The position numbers and the translations under genes were made by a program. Under the pieces are notes generated by a model. The model searched no databases. It was not told the origin of the DNA and worked only from the letters and a program-made list of their open reading frames with translations. A stretch of 64,000 bases of DNA from Desulfovibrio ferrophilus (GTDB lineage Bacteria; Desulfobacterota; Desulfovibrionia; Desulfovibrionales; Desulfovibrionaceae). Where the stretch lies: NCBI RefSeq assembly GCF_003966735.1, contig NZ_AP017378.1:124001-188000 (forward strand), in the 5' to 3' direction. Positions 2,902 to 15,667 of this stretch are shown here, one piece after another; the first letter of the stretch is position 1, and each line of letters opens with the position of its first letter.

Positions 2902-3903
2902 ATGAATAGAAGAACGTTTCTCAAGGCCCTGGGGGTGGGAGGAGCTACTGTGGCTGCCGCTCCCGCCGGGGCCGTTGCTTCTGCCACCGGCGTTGCGACC
3001 GCGACGGGTGAGGCAGAGGTGCCTTCCAACAAGGGTGAAGATCTGGCGACTATGCTGGATTTGTCCAAGTGCATTGGTTGCGGAGCATGTGTTGAGGCCT
3101 GTGCCGAATCCAATGGCCACAAGAAACCCGAGCCTGGCAATGACATTCCCGTTCCCATGCCGACCTCGCGAGCCAAGGCCGAAGACTGGTCGAGGCGGCG
3201 TGATGTCGATGACCGTTTGACTCCCTATAACTGGCTGACCATTCAGACCGCAGAGGTGGAGAAGGATGGGCAGTCTCTGGAAGTGAATATCCCCCGACGC
3301 TGCATGCACTGTGTGAATCCACCCTGTGCGGATCTCTGTCCGTTTGGCGCCGCGTTGAAGCAGAATGACGGCATTGTCCGCATCAATGACGATATCTGTA
3401 TGGGTGGGGCAAAGTGCCGCAAGGTCTGCCCCTGGCATATCCCCCAGCGCCAATCCGGCGTGGGACTATATATGGATATTCTGCCTCGATTGGCGGGCAA
3501 CGGCGTGATGTACAAATGCGACCGTTGCTATGATCGTGTGGCGCAGGGCGAACAGCCCGCGTGTATCGAGGCCTGTCCCGAGGGTGTTCAGATCATCGGT
3601 CCGCGTTCCGAGATTATTGCAAAAGCCAAGGCCCTGGCCACCAAGACCGGTGGGTATCTGTATGGCCTTGAAGAGGGTGGAGGCACCAATACAATATATG
3701 TATCGCCTGTTCCTTTTGATGATTTGAACAAGTCTATCGCCAAGGGGCCGGGGCAGCCGCACCTGGGCCCTGCACAAGACGTCATGGCCAGGGATGAAAG
3801 CCTGGCGGCAGTGGTTGCAACGGCTCCGTTTGTCGGGCTGGCAGCGGGGGTGCTGACTTTTGTGCGCGGGATGCGAAACGGGGATGGCGATCATGAAAAA
3901 TAG
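2902..3903 (+). CDS. Tat-exported four-cluster ferredoxin with C-terminal anchor (HybA/DmsB-like)
   Basis: A 333-residue electron-transfer subunit. NRRTFLKAL at the N-terminus is a twin-arginine signal, so the folded protein acts in the periplasm. Four Cys groups follow: 57/60/63/67, 134/137/142/146, 166/172/176 and 206/209/221/225. The third group reads CMGGAKC, with Gly where the second Cys is expected, so that cluster may be [3Fe-4S] or non-canonically ligated. A hydrophobic segment at about 301-322 is a C-terminal membrane anchor, as in HybA. The gene overlaps the next one by 11 bases. It probably relays electrons between the membrane subunit and a periplasmic enzyme, plausibly the octaheme cytochrome downstream. 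Confidence 0.9.
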   Translation: MNRRTFLKALGVGGATVAAAPAGAVASATGVATATGEAEVPSNKGEDLATMLDLSKCIGCGACVEACAESNGHKKPEPGNDIPVPMPTSRAKAEDWSRRRDVDDRLTPYNWLTIQTAEVEKDGQSLEVNIPRRCMHCVNPPCADLCPFGAALKQNDGIVRINDDICMGGAKCRKVCPWHIPQRQSGVGLYMDILPRLAGNGVMYKCDRCYDRVAQGEQPACIEACPEGVQIIGPRSEIIAKAKALATKTGGYLYGLEEGGGTNTIYVSPVPFDDLNKSIAKGPGQPHLGPAQDVMARDESLAAVVATAPFVGLAAGVLTFVRGMRNGDGDHEK

Positions 3904-4339
3904 TCTGTGGATGCCCAGAATTTGGATGGTCACAGTGCTCTTGCTGACCGTCACCGGTTTTGCGCAGATGCCGTTGTTTACCCGTTATTACATGACCAGC
4001 GTCCCCGGCTTCTCCTGGTTGGGCAACTTTGGGTTGACTCATTCGCTCCATTATATCGTTGCGGCTGTATTTTTGGCCCAAGTGTGCTATTGGGTTGGCA
4101 ATACCGTTTTTGCAAGGGGCTGGGTTCTGACCCCGACGGGCCGTTGGCGGGTGCTGGCGGTAGTCCTGCTGGTCGTGACGGGTCTGGTCCGAATGGCTAA
4201 GAATGATTCCGGGCTTTGGTTCAGTCCTTCAGTGGTCATGGCCGTGGACTGGACGCATCTCGCCGCGACCATGGCCTTCGGGGGCTTGGCCCTGATTGCC
4301 CGCAGGCTTTCTCAACCGTACCTCGCTAAAAAACAGTGA
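3893..4339 (+). CDS. four-helix membrane protein, possible haem b subunit
   Basis: A 148-residue integral membrane protein with four predicted helices (about 8-28, 45-66, 82-100 and 116-138). His residues in LTHSLHY and VDWTHLAAT sit at the membrane face of helices and could ligate haem b, as in small cytochrome b subunits. The start at 3893 overlaps the end of the ferredoxin gene, so translation is coupled. It probably anchors the ferredoxin and exchanges electrons with the quinone pool (inference from context). No exact family recognised. Confidence 0.72.
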   Translation: MKNSLWMPRIWMVTVLLLTVTGFAQMPLFTRYYMTSVPGFSWLGNFGLTHSLHYIVAAVFLAQVCYWVGNTVFARGWVLTPTGRWRVLAVVLLVVTGLVRMAKNDSGLWFSPSVVMAVDWTHLAATMAFGGLALIARRLSQPYLAKKQ

Positions 4340-4514: not shown

Positions 4515-4928
4515 ATGAAGCTGTCGACTCGTAGCCGTTACGGAACCAGAATGCTGTTGGACATCGCGGAGAACTCAAACGGAAAGCCCGTGTCCGTGAG
4601 TGATATTTCCAAGAGGCTTGGTGTCTCTGTGAAATATCTTGAACAGCTGATTCGCCCACTCAAGCGCGGTGGATACCTGGACAGCGTGCGCGGCCCCAAA
4701 GGCGGGCACGTTTTGACCAAGTCTCCAAGCGAAATCACCGTGGGTGAAGTGGTTCGACTGCTGGAAGGTGGGATCAATCTGACGGACTGTGTGGGTGACA
4801 GGGAGCACTGCTCAAGATCGCCGCAATGCAACGTCCGAAATGTCTGGGTCGAGGCCACTAAGGCCATGAACGACATTCTGGATTCCATCACGATCTCGCA
4901 GATCAACTACGAGAACTGCGGCTCCTAG
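4515..4928 (+). CDS. Rrf2 family transcriptional regulator, probable Fe-S sensor
   Basis: A 137-residue winged-helix regulator with the typical Rrf2 opening MKLSTRSRYG and the recognition-helix and wing region around SVKYLEQLIRPLKRGG and VRGPKGG. Cys 92, 99 and 105 are spaced like the [2Fe-2S] ligands of IscR, RsrR and NsrR, so it probably senses redox state, NO or Fe-S status. It lies between the ferredoxin/membrane pair and the octaheme cytochrome gene, which it is likely to control. A good Shine-Dalgarno sequence (GGGAGGT) fixes the start. Confidence 0.92.
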   Translation: MKLSTRSRYGTRMLLDIAENSNGKPVSVSDISKRLGVSVKYLEQLIRPLKRGGYLDSVRGPKGGHVLTKSPSEITVGEVVRLLEGGINLTDCVGDREHCSRSPQCNVRNVWVEATKAMNDILDSITISQINYENCGS

Positions 4929-5012: not shown

Positions 5013-6680
5013 ATGACCGTATGCCTGTCTTTGGCTCGCGCCGCGCTTCTGGCGGTGTTTAGTGTAGCTCTTTCCCTGACGCTTGTGTCGGCGTCCGTCG
5101 CTGCTGTGGATACGTCCACTCCAGCGGGTGACAACGGCGCAGCCCCTGGCCGCAAGCTGGCGCGCCAGGCCGTGAAGGACAAGCAGCTCTGGATTACCTC
5201 GGACCATTCCAAGCACGAGGTCCTGCAACAGGACTTCAAGACTCCCGAGGATCTCACCAAGGCCTGCTTGACCTGTCACACCGAGGCAGCCACCCAGTTC
5301 CACAAGACCATTCACTGGACGTGGCTTGACCCCAATCTCCCCAAGGAAGAGCAGGTCGGCAAGGGTGGCCTTGTCATCAACAACTTTTGAATGAACGTTC
5401 AAAGCAACGAGGCTCGTTGCACAAGTTGTCATGCCGGTTACGGCTGGAAGGACAAGAATTTCGATTTCACGGACCAGAGCAAGGTGGACTGTCTGGTTTG
5501 TCATGATCAGTCCGGAACCTACAAAAAGTTCCCGACCATGGCTGGATATCCGGTCAAGGAGCCCAAGAAGTTCGGAGGCAAGAAGCAGTTCTATCCTCCG
5601 GATTACAAGACCATCGTGGCCAGTATCGGTCGCCCTTCACGCTCCAATTGCGGCTCCTGCCATTTCAATGGCGGTGGTGGCGATGGCGTGAAGCATGGCG
5701 ACCTGGATTCCTCCCTGCTCAAGCCTTCCAAGAATCTGGATGTGCATATGGGGGTTGATGGTCAGAACTTTGGTTGTACCCGCTGCCACACCACCTCCGT
5801 CCACAATATCGCTGGCCGAATCTATTCCCATCCTGCTGCCGAGGAGCGCAAGAGCCTGCTCGAGGATGATCTGGCCACCAAGATCACCTGCGAGTCCTGC
5901 CATAGCGCCACCCCGCACAAGGCTGGGCACAAGGCCAATGACCATACGGACAAGGTTGCCTGTCAGGCCTGTCATATCCCCGAGTTTGCCCGTGAAAAGC
6001 CGACCAAGATGGAATGGGACTGGTCCACTGCCGGAAAGAAGAAGGACGGTAAGCCATATACGGAGAAGGGCCCACTGGGTAAGGACTCCTACAATTCCAA
6101 GAAGGGTTCCTTCCGTTGGGAAATGAACGTTGTTCCTGAATACTTCTGGTTCAATGGCACCATCGAGAGTGTGCGCGCCACCGATAAGGTTGATGATTCC
6201 GGAGTAGTCAAGCTCTCCTGGCCCGTGGGGGGCATGAACGATCCCAAGTCGCGTATCATGCCTTTCAAGGTGCATCGCGGGAAGACGCCTTATGATCCGG
6301 TGAACAAGAACATGGTGCTTCCGCATCTGTTCGGCAAGGATAAGGACGCCTACTGGAAGTCGTATGACTGGGGTCGTTCCATCAAGGCCGGTATGGACTA
6401 TGCCGGGTTGGAATACTCCGGTGAATATGCCTTTATCGAGACCGAGTGGGTCTTCCCCACGACGCATATGGTTGCGCCCAAGGACAATGTCGTGGCCTGC
6501 AACGAATGTCATTCCGACGCCAGTCGTCTGAACAATCTGGCGGGGTTCTACATGCCTGGCCGCGATACCCATGCGGGTCTTGATTCCATGGGTTGGCTGG
6601 TCGTGCTGGCCTCGTTCATTGGCGTGTTTATTCACGGCGGGATGCGCATGGCCGCGCGCAATCGCAGGAAGGAGGACTAG
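5013..6680 (+). CDS. octaheme c-type cytochrome (OTR family), putative selenoprotein with in-frame TGA
   Basis: Read through the TGA at 5388-5390, this encodes 555 residues: signal peptide (about 1-31), eight CxxCH haem motifs (CLTCH, CTSCH, CLVCH, CGSCH, CTRCH, CESCH, CQACH, CNECH) and a C-terminal membrane anchor (about 528-545). The sequence matches the octaheme tetrathionate reductase family end to end. The TGA is residue 126, after VINNF and 10 residues before the haem-2 motif. As I recall, homologues have Cys here, close to the catalytic haem. A SECIS-like hairpin follows at 5404-5420. Read as two genes, the second half would lack a signal peptide and ribosome binding site. Likely role: periplasmic reduction of a sulfur or nitrogen oxyanion with electrons from the adjacent cytochrome b. 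A nonsense mutation is the alternative. Confidence 0.88.
5404..5420 (+). promoter_or_regulatory. candidate bacterial SECIS hairpin
   Basis: GCAACGA (5404-5410) and TCGTTGC (5414-5420) form a perfect 7-bp stem with the loop GGC. The loop begins 20 bases after the TGA, and its first bases are G. Published bacterial SECIS descriptions ask for an apical loop about 16-37 bases after UGA, a short upper stem and a G among the first two loop bases; all three are met. ATGA just after the TGA can also pair with TCAT at 5429-5432 as a lower helix. Confidence 0.75.
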
Positions 6681-6683
6681 ATC

Positions 6684-7343
6684 ATGCCCATGAAAGAAGG
6701 AATGAAGAAGATCTACCTCTATACCCGGTTCGAGCGCTTCTGGCATTGGGCTCAGGGGGCATTGATCATCACTCTGGCCCTGACGGGGTTCGAGATTCAT
6801 GGAACCATCGATCTCTTCGGGTTCGAGCGGGCCGTGGCTGTCCATGACTTCTGTGCCTGGAGTTGGCTGGGGCTGTATGTGTTCATCGTGTTCTGGCTGC
6901 TGACCACCGGTGAGTGGAAACAGTATGTGCCGACCATGGAGAAGATCTATGACGTGGCCATGTATTACGCCAGCGGCATCTTCCGGGGCGAGCCGCATCC
7001 TGTGCCCAAGACGGTGCGGCGCAAGCATAATCCTTTGCAGCGCCTGACCTATGTGTCCATCTCTACGGTACTGATTCCGTTCCAGATCGGCACGGGGCTC
7101 TTGTATCTGTTCTACAACCAGTGGGCTGATCTGGGCATTGCCAACTCCATGTCTCTGGATATGGTGGCCCTGTTGCACATGATTGGCGCTTTCGGCTTTT
7201 TGGCTTTTCTGGTGGTGCATGTTTACATGACAACCACCGGGCACGCCGTGTCCGCACACATCATTGCGATGTTTACGGGTTGGGAAGAAGTCGAGGATGT
7301 GGATTCGGTTCAGGATTGGGAGAAGAAATCTGAACGTATTTGA
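6684..7343 (+). CDS. cytochrome b, membrane quinol-oxidising partner
   Basis: A 219-residue integral membrane protein starting three bases after the octaheme stop codon. RFWHWAQGALIITLALTGFE at the N-terminus is the first haem-ligand helix of the Ni-hydrogenase/thiosulfate-reductase cytochrome b family. Further His residues lie in VHDFCAWSW, VALLHMIG and VVHVYMTTTGH. Four helices are predicted. It probably takes electrons from menaquinol and hands them to the octaheme cytochrome, completing a quinol-dependent periplasmic reductase. A terminator follows, so it is the last gene of this unit. Confidence 0.88.
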   Translation: MPMKEGMKKIYLYTRFERFWHWAQGALIITLALTGFEIHGTIDLFGFERAVAVHDFCAWSWLGLYVFIVFWLLTTGEWKQYVPTMEKIYDVAMYYASGIFRGEPHPVPKTVRRKHNPLQRLTYVSISTVLIPFQIGTGLLYLFYNQWADLGIANSMSLDMVALLHMIGAFGFLAFLVVHVYMTTTGHAVSAHIIAMFTGWEEVEDVDSVQDWEKKSERI

Positions 7344-13585: not shown

Positions 13586-15667
13586 TTAGGCTTTTTGCAC
13601 GGAGATGAAATGCTCCTGCATGGCGATGCCACCACCTGCGGCATCAAGCTTTTCCAGTCCGCCAGTCATCAGTTCCTGATCGGCGATACCCTTTGAAGAG
13701 CGGGTCTCCGCCGGGATGCGATGGCCAAATCCGTGGATCATGAAGGCGGCTTCCGGATGAATGAAGTCCGTGACAAAGGCCTTGGTCTTGGCTGCATAGC
13801 CTGCGTTGGAAACCTCCACCTCGTCACCGTCCTTGATGCCCAATTCTTCGGCCCGAGCCGTATTGATCCAGACCGGGTTGATGGGCATCTGCTCGTTGAG
13901 CACCGGGTTGTTCACGGTGTGTCCCTGGGTATGCAGGGCGCAACGACCAAAAGCGACGCGGAAGCGACCCTCGGGCGGAGTCTCGGGAGTGACGTAAGGC
14001 TTGAGAGAGGGCAGGCCCATATCTTCCAATTTGTCGCAAATGACCTCGATTTTGCCCGAGGGGGTGCCAAAGGAATATTCGTCCCACTCGCGGTACTTGG
14101 GCTTGTCTGCCAACCAGATCTGCCCTGTGGCGTCGAAGTCTTCCACGGAGAAGCCCGTGGGCTCCAACTGGTAGTTCCACATTTCCTCAGCGGATTCGAA
14201 GGCCAGCTTGTCGATGCCCAGTCTTTTGCTCAGACCGGCGAGAATTTCCCAATCTGCCCGGGTATCATAAATGGGCTCCACGGCGCGTGCGCGGCGGAAG
14301 AAGAAGGTCTTCAGACCCTTTTTTGTGGCCAGGGGGGATTCGCGTTCCAGGTATGTGCTCATGGGCAGGACGACATCGGCGTACCAGGAAGAATCGGACC
14401 AGCTGAAGGTGTTGGCCACGATCAGGTCCAGATGTTTCCACATCTCCTTGATGCGCGGCTGGTCGGGCATGGCATGCAACGGGTCATGGCGATGGATGAT
14501 GTAGGCCTTGACCGGGTATGGATCAGCAGATTCGATGGCGTCGTATGCCTTGTTGATCAGGCCGGGACCCGCGTCGATATGCTTGAGCTTCCAGCCGCAA
14601 CCGTCCGCGCGTTTTTCCTCGGGTTTGGGGTAGAGGTCCGAGAAGGCCTTCAAACCCTTGTGACCGAAGTCGCCGGGGGTGTTGACGAACGGCAGACCAC
14701 CCTTGGCGCCGATGGAACCCATCAGGGCGTTGATCAGGTACGCGGTGCGGCAGATGTAGAACGAGTCGGAATAGCGGGCCACCATCCAGCCTGGATGCCA
14801 GATTACTGCCGGAGCGGCCTGCTTGAGTTGTTTGCAGAGTTTTTCGATTTCAGCCGCCGGGATGCCGGTTTCGCCCTCTGCCCATTCGGGGGTGTAGGGA
14901 GCGACAAAGCTTTGGAGTGCGTCGAGATCCTTGATGAACCGCTCGGCATATTTTTTGTCGTACCAGCCTTTGGAGAGCAACGTGTTGATGACGGCCAGGT
15001 TGAAAGCGTAGTCCGTGCCTGGACGCAGCATGAAGAAGTTGTTTGCCTTGGAGGCGGAAACCGTGGCCCGGATGTCGATGACGGAAAGCTTGCCTCCAGC
15101 GGCTAAGCCGTCCAGGGCTCCATTGACTTCCTTGACGTTGACGGCCTCGAAGAGGTTGCGGGTCTGGAGTACGAGGTGTTTGCAATTCTTGAGGTCATAG
15201 CCCACGGCCTTGCGCCCTTTGCCCATCACGGATTTTGCCGCGTGCAGGACGTTGCGTGCGCAGGCGGCATCGTGGTTGCAATAGTTTGGGGAGCCAATGC
15301 CGCGCATGAAGGCTTTGTGCAGGTCGGGGAATGGACCGCCACGGTCGGACCACAAGACAGATTGAGGGCCATACTCTGCCATGATGGCTTTTAGTTTGTC
15401 AGCGACGTAATCCAGTGCTTCATCCCACGTTGCGCGGCGCCATTTGCCCTCGCCTCGTTCGCCCTCGCGTATCATGGGGTATTGCGGGCGTTCACTGTCA
15501 TGCAGCAAAGCGTAGCCTGCCGCACCTCGGGGGCAAAGGCCGCCTTTCATGCCGGCGTCGTGGGGGTTGCCCTGGATGAAGGACACGTCCCCGTTTTCCA
15601 CCTCGACCATGATGGGACAGCGGACGGAACACATTCCGCAGACGCTGTATACGGTATCCTTGCCCAT
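13586..15667 (-). CDS. molybdopterin-dependent oxidoreductase catalytic subunit, cytoplasmic (PsrA/PhsA-like)
   Basis: A 693-residue member of the DMSO reductase superfamily. CGMCSVRC (Cys 10, 13, 17) and Cys 45 bind the [4Fe-4S] cluster. The segment SPNYCNHDAAC (Cys 136) is the probable Mo-ligand site, resembling polysulfide/thiosulfate reductase subunits. A C-terminal cofactor-binding domain (INPVWINTARAEELGIKDGD) completes the fold. Unlike PsrA or PhsA it has no Tat signal, and no B or C subunit gene adjoins, so it is probably a cytoplasmic enzyme using soluble ferredoxin or NAD(P)H partners. The substrate is unknown. It is monocistronic, with a terminator behind it and a palindrome in front. 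Confidence 0.87.
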   Translation of the reverse strand: MGKDTVYSVCGMCSVRCPIMVEVENGDVSFIQGNPHDAGMKGGLCPRGAAGYALLHDSERPQYPMIREGERGEGKWRRATWDEALDYVADKLKAIMAEYGPQSVLWSDRGGPFPDLHKAFMRGIGSPNYCNHDAACARNVLHAAKSVMGKGRKAVGYDLKNCKHLVLQTRNLFEAVNVKEVNGALDGLAAGGKLSVIDIRATVSASKANNFFMLRPGTDYAFNLAVINTLLSKGWYDKKYAERFIKDLDALQSFVAPYTPEWAEGETGIPAAEIEKLCKQLKQAAPAVIWHPGWMVARYSDSFYICRTAYLINALMGSIGAKGGLPFVNTPGDFGHKGLKAFSDLYPKPEEKRADGCGWKLKHIDAGPGLINKAYDAIESADPYPVKAYIIHRHDPLHAMPDQPRIKEMWKHLDLIVANTFSWSDSSWYADVVLPMSTYLERESPLATKKGLKTFFFRRARAVEPIYDTRADWEILAGLSKRLGIDKLAFESAEEMWNYQLEPTGFSVEDFDATGQIWLADKPKYREWDEYSFGTPSGKIEVICDKLEDMGLPSLKPYVTPETPPEGRFRVAFGRCALHTQGHTVNNPVLNEQMPINPVWINTARAEELGIKDGDEVEVSNAGYAAKTKAFVTDFIHPEAAFMIHGFGHRIPAETRSSKGIADQELMTGGLEKLDAAGGGIAMQEHFISVQKA

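Follow-up and report, generated by a model that had tools for sequence, protein, structure and literature searches.

The octaheme c-type cytochrome encoded at 5013-6680 of the window (the whole stretch of DNA analysed here, 64,000 nt of Desulfovibrio ferrophilus, GCF_003966735.1, contig NZ_AP017378.1, positions 124,001-188,000 of the forward strand) is very probably a selenoprotein. Judged from its sequence and from those of its relatives, the UGA at codon 126 of its gene is decoded as selenocysteine (Sec), which replaces a Cys beside the motif of haem 2. This reading is strongly supported because the genome has the decoding machinery, Cys and Sec exchange at this position within the family, a SECIS-like hairpin follows the codon, and the sequence past the codon is under purifying selection. 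The features of the gene to which we refer below are:

5013..6680, + strand: octaheme c-type cytochrome of the OTR family (TIGR04315), with the TGA very probably read as Sec; from profile, 1SP3 alignment and model
5388..5390, + strand: in-frame TGA, residue 126, very probably read as selenocysteine, opposite Cys64 of 1SP3; from alignment
5404..5420, + strand: SECIS-like hairpin of type A, with a 7-bp stem, loop GGC, the loop 20 nt past the TGA, -7.5 kcal/mol; from folding
5418..5432, + strand: haem motif 2 (CTSCH), residues 136-140, whose haem is the catalytic one if judged by homology with the Shewanella enzyme; from alignment
5691..5693, + strand: codon of Lys227, which aligns with a Lys of Shewanella OTR; from alignment

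Translation of 5013-6680 confirmed the original prediction of one continuous frame of 555 codons, and thus of 555 residues, with a single TGA at 5388-5390. A motif scan of the read-through product located eight CXXCH motifs (at residues 85, 136, 160, 213, 255, 293, 317 and 496), all eight collinear with those of 1SP3. The N-terminus is signal-peptide-like, and the C-terminal helix resembles a membrane anchor. Membership of the OTR family, with the sequence collinear on both sides of the TGA, had also been proposed, and each half alone indeed matched TIGR04315 in the expected order (5013-5387 to profile positions 2-64, 5391-6677 to positions 66-440), the sum of both being 634.9 bits versus a curated cut-off of 375. 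As had been stated, U126 sits 10 residues ahead of C136, with which haem motif 2 begins. A profile search of the window's genome (3,720,107 bases in two contigs) returned one OTR match only, the window's own.

The sole solved relative found by sequence at E <= 0.001 was the octaheme tetrathionate reductase of Shewanella oneidensis, 1SP3 (phmmer E 1.3e-127), whose INNFC motif sets Cys64 opposite the TGA, the numbering of the chain being taken from the alignment. An AlphaFold2 model of the window OTR, built from a 31-sequence alignment, had a mean pLDDT of 72.3 and a pTM of 0.71, with the block 121-130 at 86 and residues 244-304 below 50. Searched with this model, Foldseek gave a single match below E 0.001, namely 1SP3 (E 1.1e-40, TM 0.80 by target). 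The window OTR is thus like 1SP3 in its fold, its eight CXXCH motifs and its conserved Lys, and unlike it in having Sec instead of Cys at residue 126, an extra C-terminal helix and a cytochrome b561 neighbour. The Lys of Shewanella OTR opposite Lys227 is what we take to be a ligand of haem 2, and a Cys near this haem of the Shewanella enzyme has been discussed as an active-site residue.

To place the window OTR among its relatives, we surveyed 395 genomes of the phylum, scoring up to four candidates per genome. The TIGR04315 cut-off was exceeded by 78 matches in 69 genomes, and one in-frame TGA was present in 31/78 of these matches, or in 30/69 of the genomes, so that Sec forms of OTR are not rare in the sampled phylum; annotation with table 11 splits a sizeable share of OTR enzymes in two. 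In the window's own family, 4/17 sampled genomes had an over-cut-off OTR, with Sec in the window and Cys in the other three. The alignment was assembled from 80 loci of GTDB contigs and 40 more stretches added to the survey, which gave 153 rows; 3 exact copies and 5 non-OTR or unaligned rows (with a gap in three, Ala in one and Cys in one at the residue-126 column) were left out, leaving 145 rows including the window. Near-copies were retained among them, and rows are not to be counted as independent events; 11 of the 78 over-cut-off matches, all without stops, lie outside the fetched rows. At the residue-126 column, 36 of the 145 rows had Sec, the other 109 had Cys and none had anything else, which bears out the claim that family members have Cys here, and the Lys227 column held Lys in 145/145. 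Two weak OTR-like matches (L169 and L170, at G154:C98 and G268:C73) carry one in-frame TGA each, outside the aligned part.

Codon 126 was TGA, and not TGC or TGT, in the window as well as in 35 further rows, one of which (L052) belongs to a separate MAG and is 88% identical to the window. A sequencing error is very unlikely as the source of the TGA, since L052 and 34 further rows share it. In the comparison of the window with L052, dN was 0.065 and dS 0.71 past the TGA (dN/dS about 0.09), and 0.078 and 0.56, respectively, ahead of it. That the TGA is a true stop in a decayed pseudogene, or an error, would account for a frame split by a single TGA, but can practically be dismissed in view of the recurrence of the TGA at this codon in 35 rows of other genomes, the strong purifying selection past it, the otherwise intact frame and a hairpin kept at the codon level.

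Scarcely more credible is the production of two proteins, with a stop at the TGA and a re-start at the ATG at 5391. An ATG does directly follow the TGA in the window, as it does in L052 and a few more of the Sec rows; however, many Sec rows have ATC, ATT, GTG or GTC in its place. As in the original prediction, no Shine-Dalgarno-like stretch was found among the bases inspected upstream of the ATG at 5391. Moreover, the second part, with its seven haem motifs, has no export signal, and haem 1 would be severed from it.

The components of a Sec decoding system that the original prediction named are all present in the genome of the window: selB (396.6 bits), selA (617.9 bits), selD (340.5 bits) and tRNA-Sec (80.9 bits versus a gathering score of 47). 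The selD gene (L018, C1:455441-456355) itself carries one in-frame TGA, and by its sequence SelD is probably a selenoprotein too. The presence of selA was considered as a discriminator between Sec and Cys forms and failed: the gene was found in 28/30 genomes with a Sec-OTR (missing in G394, which is 81% complete, and in G300, 90%) and in 37/39 genomes with Cys forms only, and therefore the presence of the system is no guide to Sec versus Cys.

Evidence beyond the original prediction, which contained none of this kind, came from SECIS-like hairpins. Two types of them occur right after the Sec codon in the Sec rows. Type A, with the sequence GCAACGA-GGC-TCGTTGC and its loop 20 nt past the TGA, is present in 7 rows (the window, L029, L030, L052, L055, L060 of Salidesulfovibrio brasiliensis JCM 12178 and L136), and type B, with the sequence (A)ACTGGTGC-AGGT or AGTT-GCACCA and its loop 24 nt past the TGA, in 29 rows. 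Type B resembles the SECIS of E. coli fdhF in its TGCAGGT and GCACC, as they stand after TGA codon 140 of fdhF, although that gene encodes a molybdenum formate dehydrogenase, unlike OTR; the type A sequence of the window differs from the fdhF SECIS. The bSECIS limits given in PMC13188914 comprise a loop of 3-9 nt, a stem of 4-16 bp, a G in the first two loop positions, a spacing of 16-37 nt and an energy of at most -7.5. The window hairpin falls within these limits (loop GGC, 7 bp, spacing 20), its energy of -7.5 being right at the last of them.

When the same limits were combined with an uninterrupted stem, 36/36 Sec rows and 1/109 Cys rows passed, and when the energy limit was eased to -5.0, 36/36 and 7/109 did; the uninterrupted-stem test misses the known E. 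coli fdhF SECIS, being tailored to OTR hairpins and no general SECIS finder. The energy of the best hairpin, left free of these limits, averaged -11.5 kcal/mol in Sec versus -8.0 kcal/mol in Cys rows (rank test p 1.7e-8, with rows that are not independent). Taken alone, the hairpin of the window is unexceptional for stretches of 45 nt and 30 nt: shuffled sequences folded as well as the window in 24/200 and 20/200 cases, respectively, and in 0/200 cases for 71 nt. Z-scores of the folding energy, likewise for the window alone, were weak.

At the hairpin, codons are conserved beyond what the protein code requires. In the seven type A rows, codons +6 to +10 were identical in 21/21 pairs, compared with a mean of 0.474 over 261 columns and with 0.75 for the best six-codon run elsewhere in these genes; the type A hairpin is invariant, hence there is zero covariation to count. 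The same codon run scored 0.62 (rank 28 of 115) in Cys rows of the type A clade, a control based on 21 of the 28 such rows, from which L057 and six rows with other haem-2 spacing were excluded. Among the 25 rows of the main type B group, identity extended to 300/300 pairs for codons +6, +8, +9 and +11 and to 254/300 for codon +10, with a gene mean of 0.456. The exact type A 17-mer occurred 4 times and a type B 19-mer 26 times across the 395 genomes, all inside Sec-OTR matches, with no occurrence of the hairpin patterns outside Sec-OTR genes and none when the patterns were read backwards; as the patterns were derived from the same OTR genes, the information lies in nothing else in the 395 genomes carrying them. 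L158, a type B row with AAT, escapes the type B pattern.

These observations also bear on the identity of the inserted residue, which the DNA does not name. Homologues have Cys at this place, as would suit insertion of Cys, or of Trp, by near-cognate read-through or under a variant code. Such decoding is nonetheless very improbable, given the complete Sec system of the genome, the occurrence of a SECIS-like hairpin with the TGA in 36/36 rows versus 1/109 Cys rows, and the in-frame TGA of selD; other genes do end in TGA in the list of open reading frames, though only as read by table 11. Decoding as Sec thus remains the preferred reading.

The hairpin of the window overlaps the coding sequence of the haem motif. 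Its 3' arm, 5414-5420, terminates in TGC, the codon of C136, with which CTSCH begins, and the codons of residues 131-134 are set because the 5' arm must pair with this C136-containing 3' arm. At position +8 from the Sec codon, Sec rows have Cys (29/36) or Ala (7/36, the window among them) and never Pro, and the 109 Cys rows have Pro in 62, Ala in 17, other residues in 30 and Cys in 0, where +8 is a plain offset at which rows with other spacing are non-homologous. A Cys subclade of six rows (L155, L159, L160, L161, L162 and L164) has an altered spacing from the Cys to haem motif 2. Pro, with its CCN codons, would be unable to fill the +8 place in stem or loop, which suggests that RNA, and not protein chemistry, fixed Ala or Cys there. 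Arg at +9 is encoded by AGG in 25/25 rows of the main type B group, which fits a choice imposed by RNA at the stem. We considered a Sec-Cys redox pair with the Cys at +8, found in 29/36 Sec and 0/109 Cys rows, and rejected it as the explanation: RNA is the simpler reason, because the type B stem needs the codon and because Ala stands there in 7 Sec rows, among them the window. The Cys at +8 may have a redox role beside its RNA role.

In a tree of the 145 rows, from which the columns around residue 126 had been removed, the distribution of Sec and Cys required 7 changes, 6 of them forced by well-supported branches, versus 32 with shuffled labels. Type A rows are scattered within a clade of 35 rows that has 28 Cys rows, and a single clade for the 8 rows with a type A hairpin was rejected (p-AU 0.004, on 42 rows, made up of the complete type A clade of 35 plus 7 rows from outside it). 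One gain of the hairpin followed by 6 losses would explain this scatter, as would transfer or recombination; an independent origin of 17 identical bases seems unlikely. The eighth row with the hairpin, L057, from a Desulfatitalea MAG, has TGT at the codon, yet keeps the full 17-base hairpin of the window unchanged; it is sister to the Sec row L029, and is the one among the 109 Cys rows that passes the bSECIS limits. L057 is probably the product of a Sec-to-Cys change that left a fossil SECIS, although a read error in this single MAG, or acquisition of the hairpin at a time before the TGA arose, may account for it as well. Type B rows fall into one clade of 25 and a remote clade of 4.

Several genomes carry more than one OTR. 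G134 has three paralogues, namely a Sec form with a type A hairpin, a Sec form with a type B variant and a Cys form (L030, L158 and L160), and G184 (L027 and L156) and G331 (L028 and L157) each have one Cys-OTR and one remote Sec-OTR. Pairs of Sec and Cys forms in close relatives, together with the Cys form with an intact hairpin, offer a ready test of the role of selenium in OTR.

A joint reading of these patterns, to which we would give somewhat less than even chances, is that the catalytic site of OTR acquired Sec on at least two occasions, every time together with a hairpin that overlies the codon for haem-2 attachment. Type B would have forced an extra Cys at +8 and AGG or AGT at +9, and type A would have forced Ala at +8; type A would then have disappeared repeatedly and Cys returned, one lineage keeping its SECIS as a fossil. 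The translation signal would thereby have steered the sequence beside the catalytic haem, turnover between Sec and Cys would be frequent, and the Sec forms would be selenolate-haem enzymes serving the respiration of sulfur or selenium compounds across the phylum.

The gene directly downstream of the OTR gene suggests a source of electrons:

6684..7343, + strand: cytochrome b561-type membrane protein (PF01292), starting 3 bases past the OTR stop; from family match

A cytochrome b561 gene lies directly downstream in 30/36 Sec and 60/109 Cys rows. The nearest NCBIfam model to the b561 protein of the window is that of thiosulfate reductase cytochrome b, at a sub-cut-off 102.3 of 204 bits, and the b561 protein is a likely quinol-linked electron donor. 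In the mechanism that we propose, the window OTR would be a membrane-anchored periplasmic octaheme cytochrome whose UGA 126 is decoded by SelB and tRNA-Sec via the downstream hairpin, so that Sec would stand, 10 residues before the haem-2 motif, where all other sampled OTR forms have Cys. Electrons from quinol would enter via the b561 neighbour and pass along the haems to haem 2, near which the selenolate would attack, or help to reduce, a small oxidised compound of sulfur (or of nitrogen or selenium). Compared with Cys, Sec would speed up this site and ease its recovery from oxidation. We infer the decoding in the cell, the place of haem 2 as the site in the window OTR, the substrate and the role of selenium, and we would rate as about an even bet that quinol electrons arrive via b561 and that Sec126 helps to break S-S, S-O or Se-O bonds. 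Sec beside a catalytic multihaem site would link selenium chemistry with cytochrome respiration.

Two alternatives concern the role of Sec. It could be made but chemically neutral, a structural residue at which Sec and Cys exchange by drift; Sec and Cys forms do stand near each other on the tree, with 7 changes, and selA is present in 37/39 genomes of the phylum with Cys forms. We consider this improbable, as all 145 rows have either Cys or Sec at this residue and the cost of a SECIS has been kept in 36; such complete conservation therefore suggests a redox or catalytic need. The other alternative, which survives better and yet appears rather unlikely, is that the enzyme is chiefly a nitrite or hydroxylamine reductase, in which Sec would have an acid-base or protective role and would not be a nucleophile on sulfur. 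OTR is stated to reduce nitrite, hydroxylamine and tetrathionate, with haem II as the catalytic haem, and the first two activities, found in the Shewanella enzyme, speak for this alternative (PMC4484225). However, a selenol would offer least for N-oxide chemistry at a haem, and the b-type neighbour is nearest to thiosulfate reductase cytochrome b, albeit below its cut-off (102.3 of 204 bits).

The original prediction knew of no described selenoprotein in the OTR family. This did not hold, as a review lists the TIGR04315 octaheme cytochrome WP_331457571.1 as a selenoprotein (PMC13188914, Appl Environ Microbiol, May 2026), in one table line marked 'GenBank annotated' with the motif not available, and the word 'octaheme' occurs once in its text. 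Known to us from this table line, WP_331457571.1 is like the window OTR in its family and in having one Sec per protein, and its entry gives no position, SECIS, distribution or function (PMC13188914). No other account of an octaheme or OTR selenoprotein was found in the portions covered of a mostly open-access literature, outside which Mowat 2004 and Atkinson 2007 lie, and a search of the same literature for Cys64 of an octaheme cytochrome gave no match. By these sources, OTR is a selenoprotein family already known, by annotation only, of which the window is a well-supported further case; the position of Sec, the two SECIS types and the way they overlap the codon of haem 2, the fossil SECIS and the share of Sec forms across the phylum seem undescribed in the literature searched.

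A further comparison is offered by ExtKL of Geobacter, which, like the window OTR, is a c-type multihaem protein with an in-frame TGA, and which is a selenoprotein candidate tied by its authors to selenite reduction (PMC1914089, PMC5877670). Unlike OTR, ExtKL belongs to another family, NCBIfam NF040886 (PMC13188914), and has its Sec in a C-terminal part without haem motifs (PMC1914089, PMC5877670).

Upstream of the OTR gene, three further genes lie on the same strand:

4515..4928, + strand: Rrf2-family regulator, just upstream of OTR; from family match
2902..3903, + strand: four-cluster ferredoxin-type protein with a TAT-like start, HybA/HmcB-like but under the cut-offs of both
3860..4339, + strand: small hydrophobic (membrane) protein, its gene overlapping the ferredoxin gene

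The Rrf2-type protein is a probable local regulator, and the ferredoxin-type protein is a possible partner of OTR; strong relatives of the latter (>250 bits) lie beside OTR in L032, L034, L052, L053 and L140, in a set in which most loci have short flanks. The product of 3860..4339 gave zero family matches. Farther away on the opposite strand, the window holds a molybdopterin enzyme (13586-15667), nearest to thiosulfate reductase PhsA at a sub-cut-off 486 of 694 bits. A sigma-54 activator with a PAS domain is encoded divergently upstream (1232-2662, - strand), and relatives of this activator lie near OTR on the opposite strand in a number of loci.
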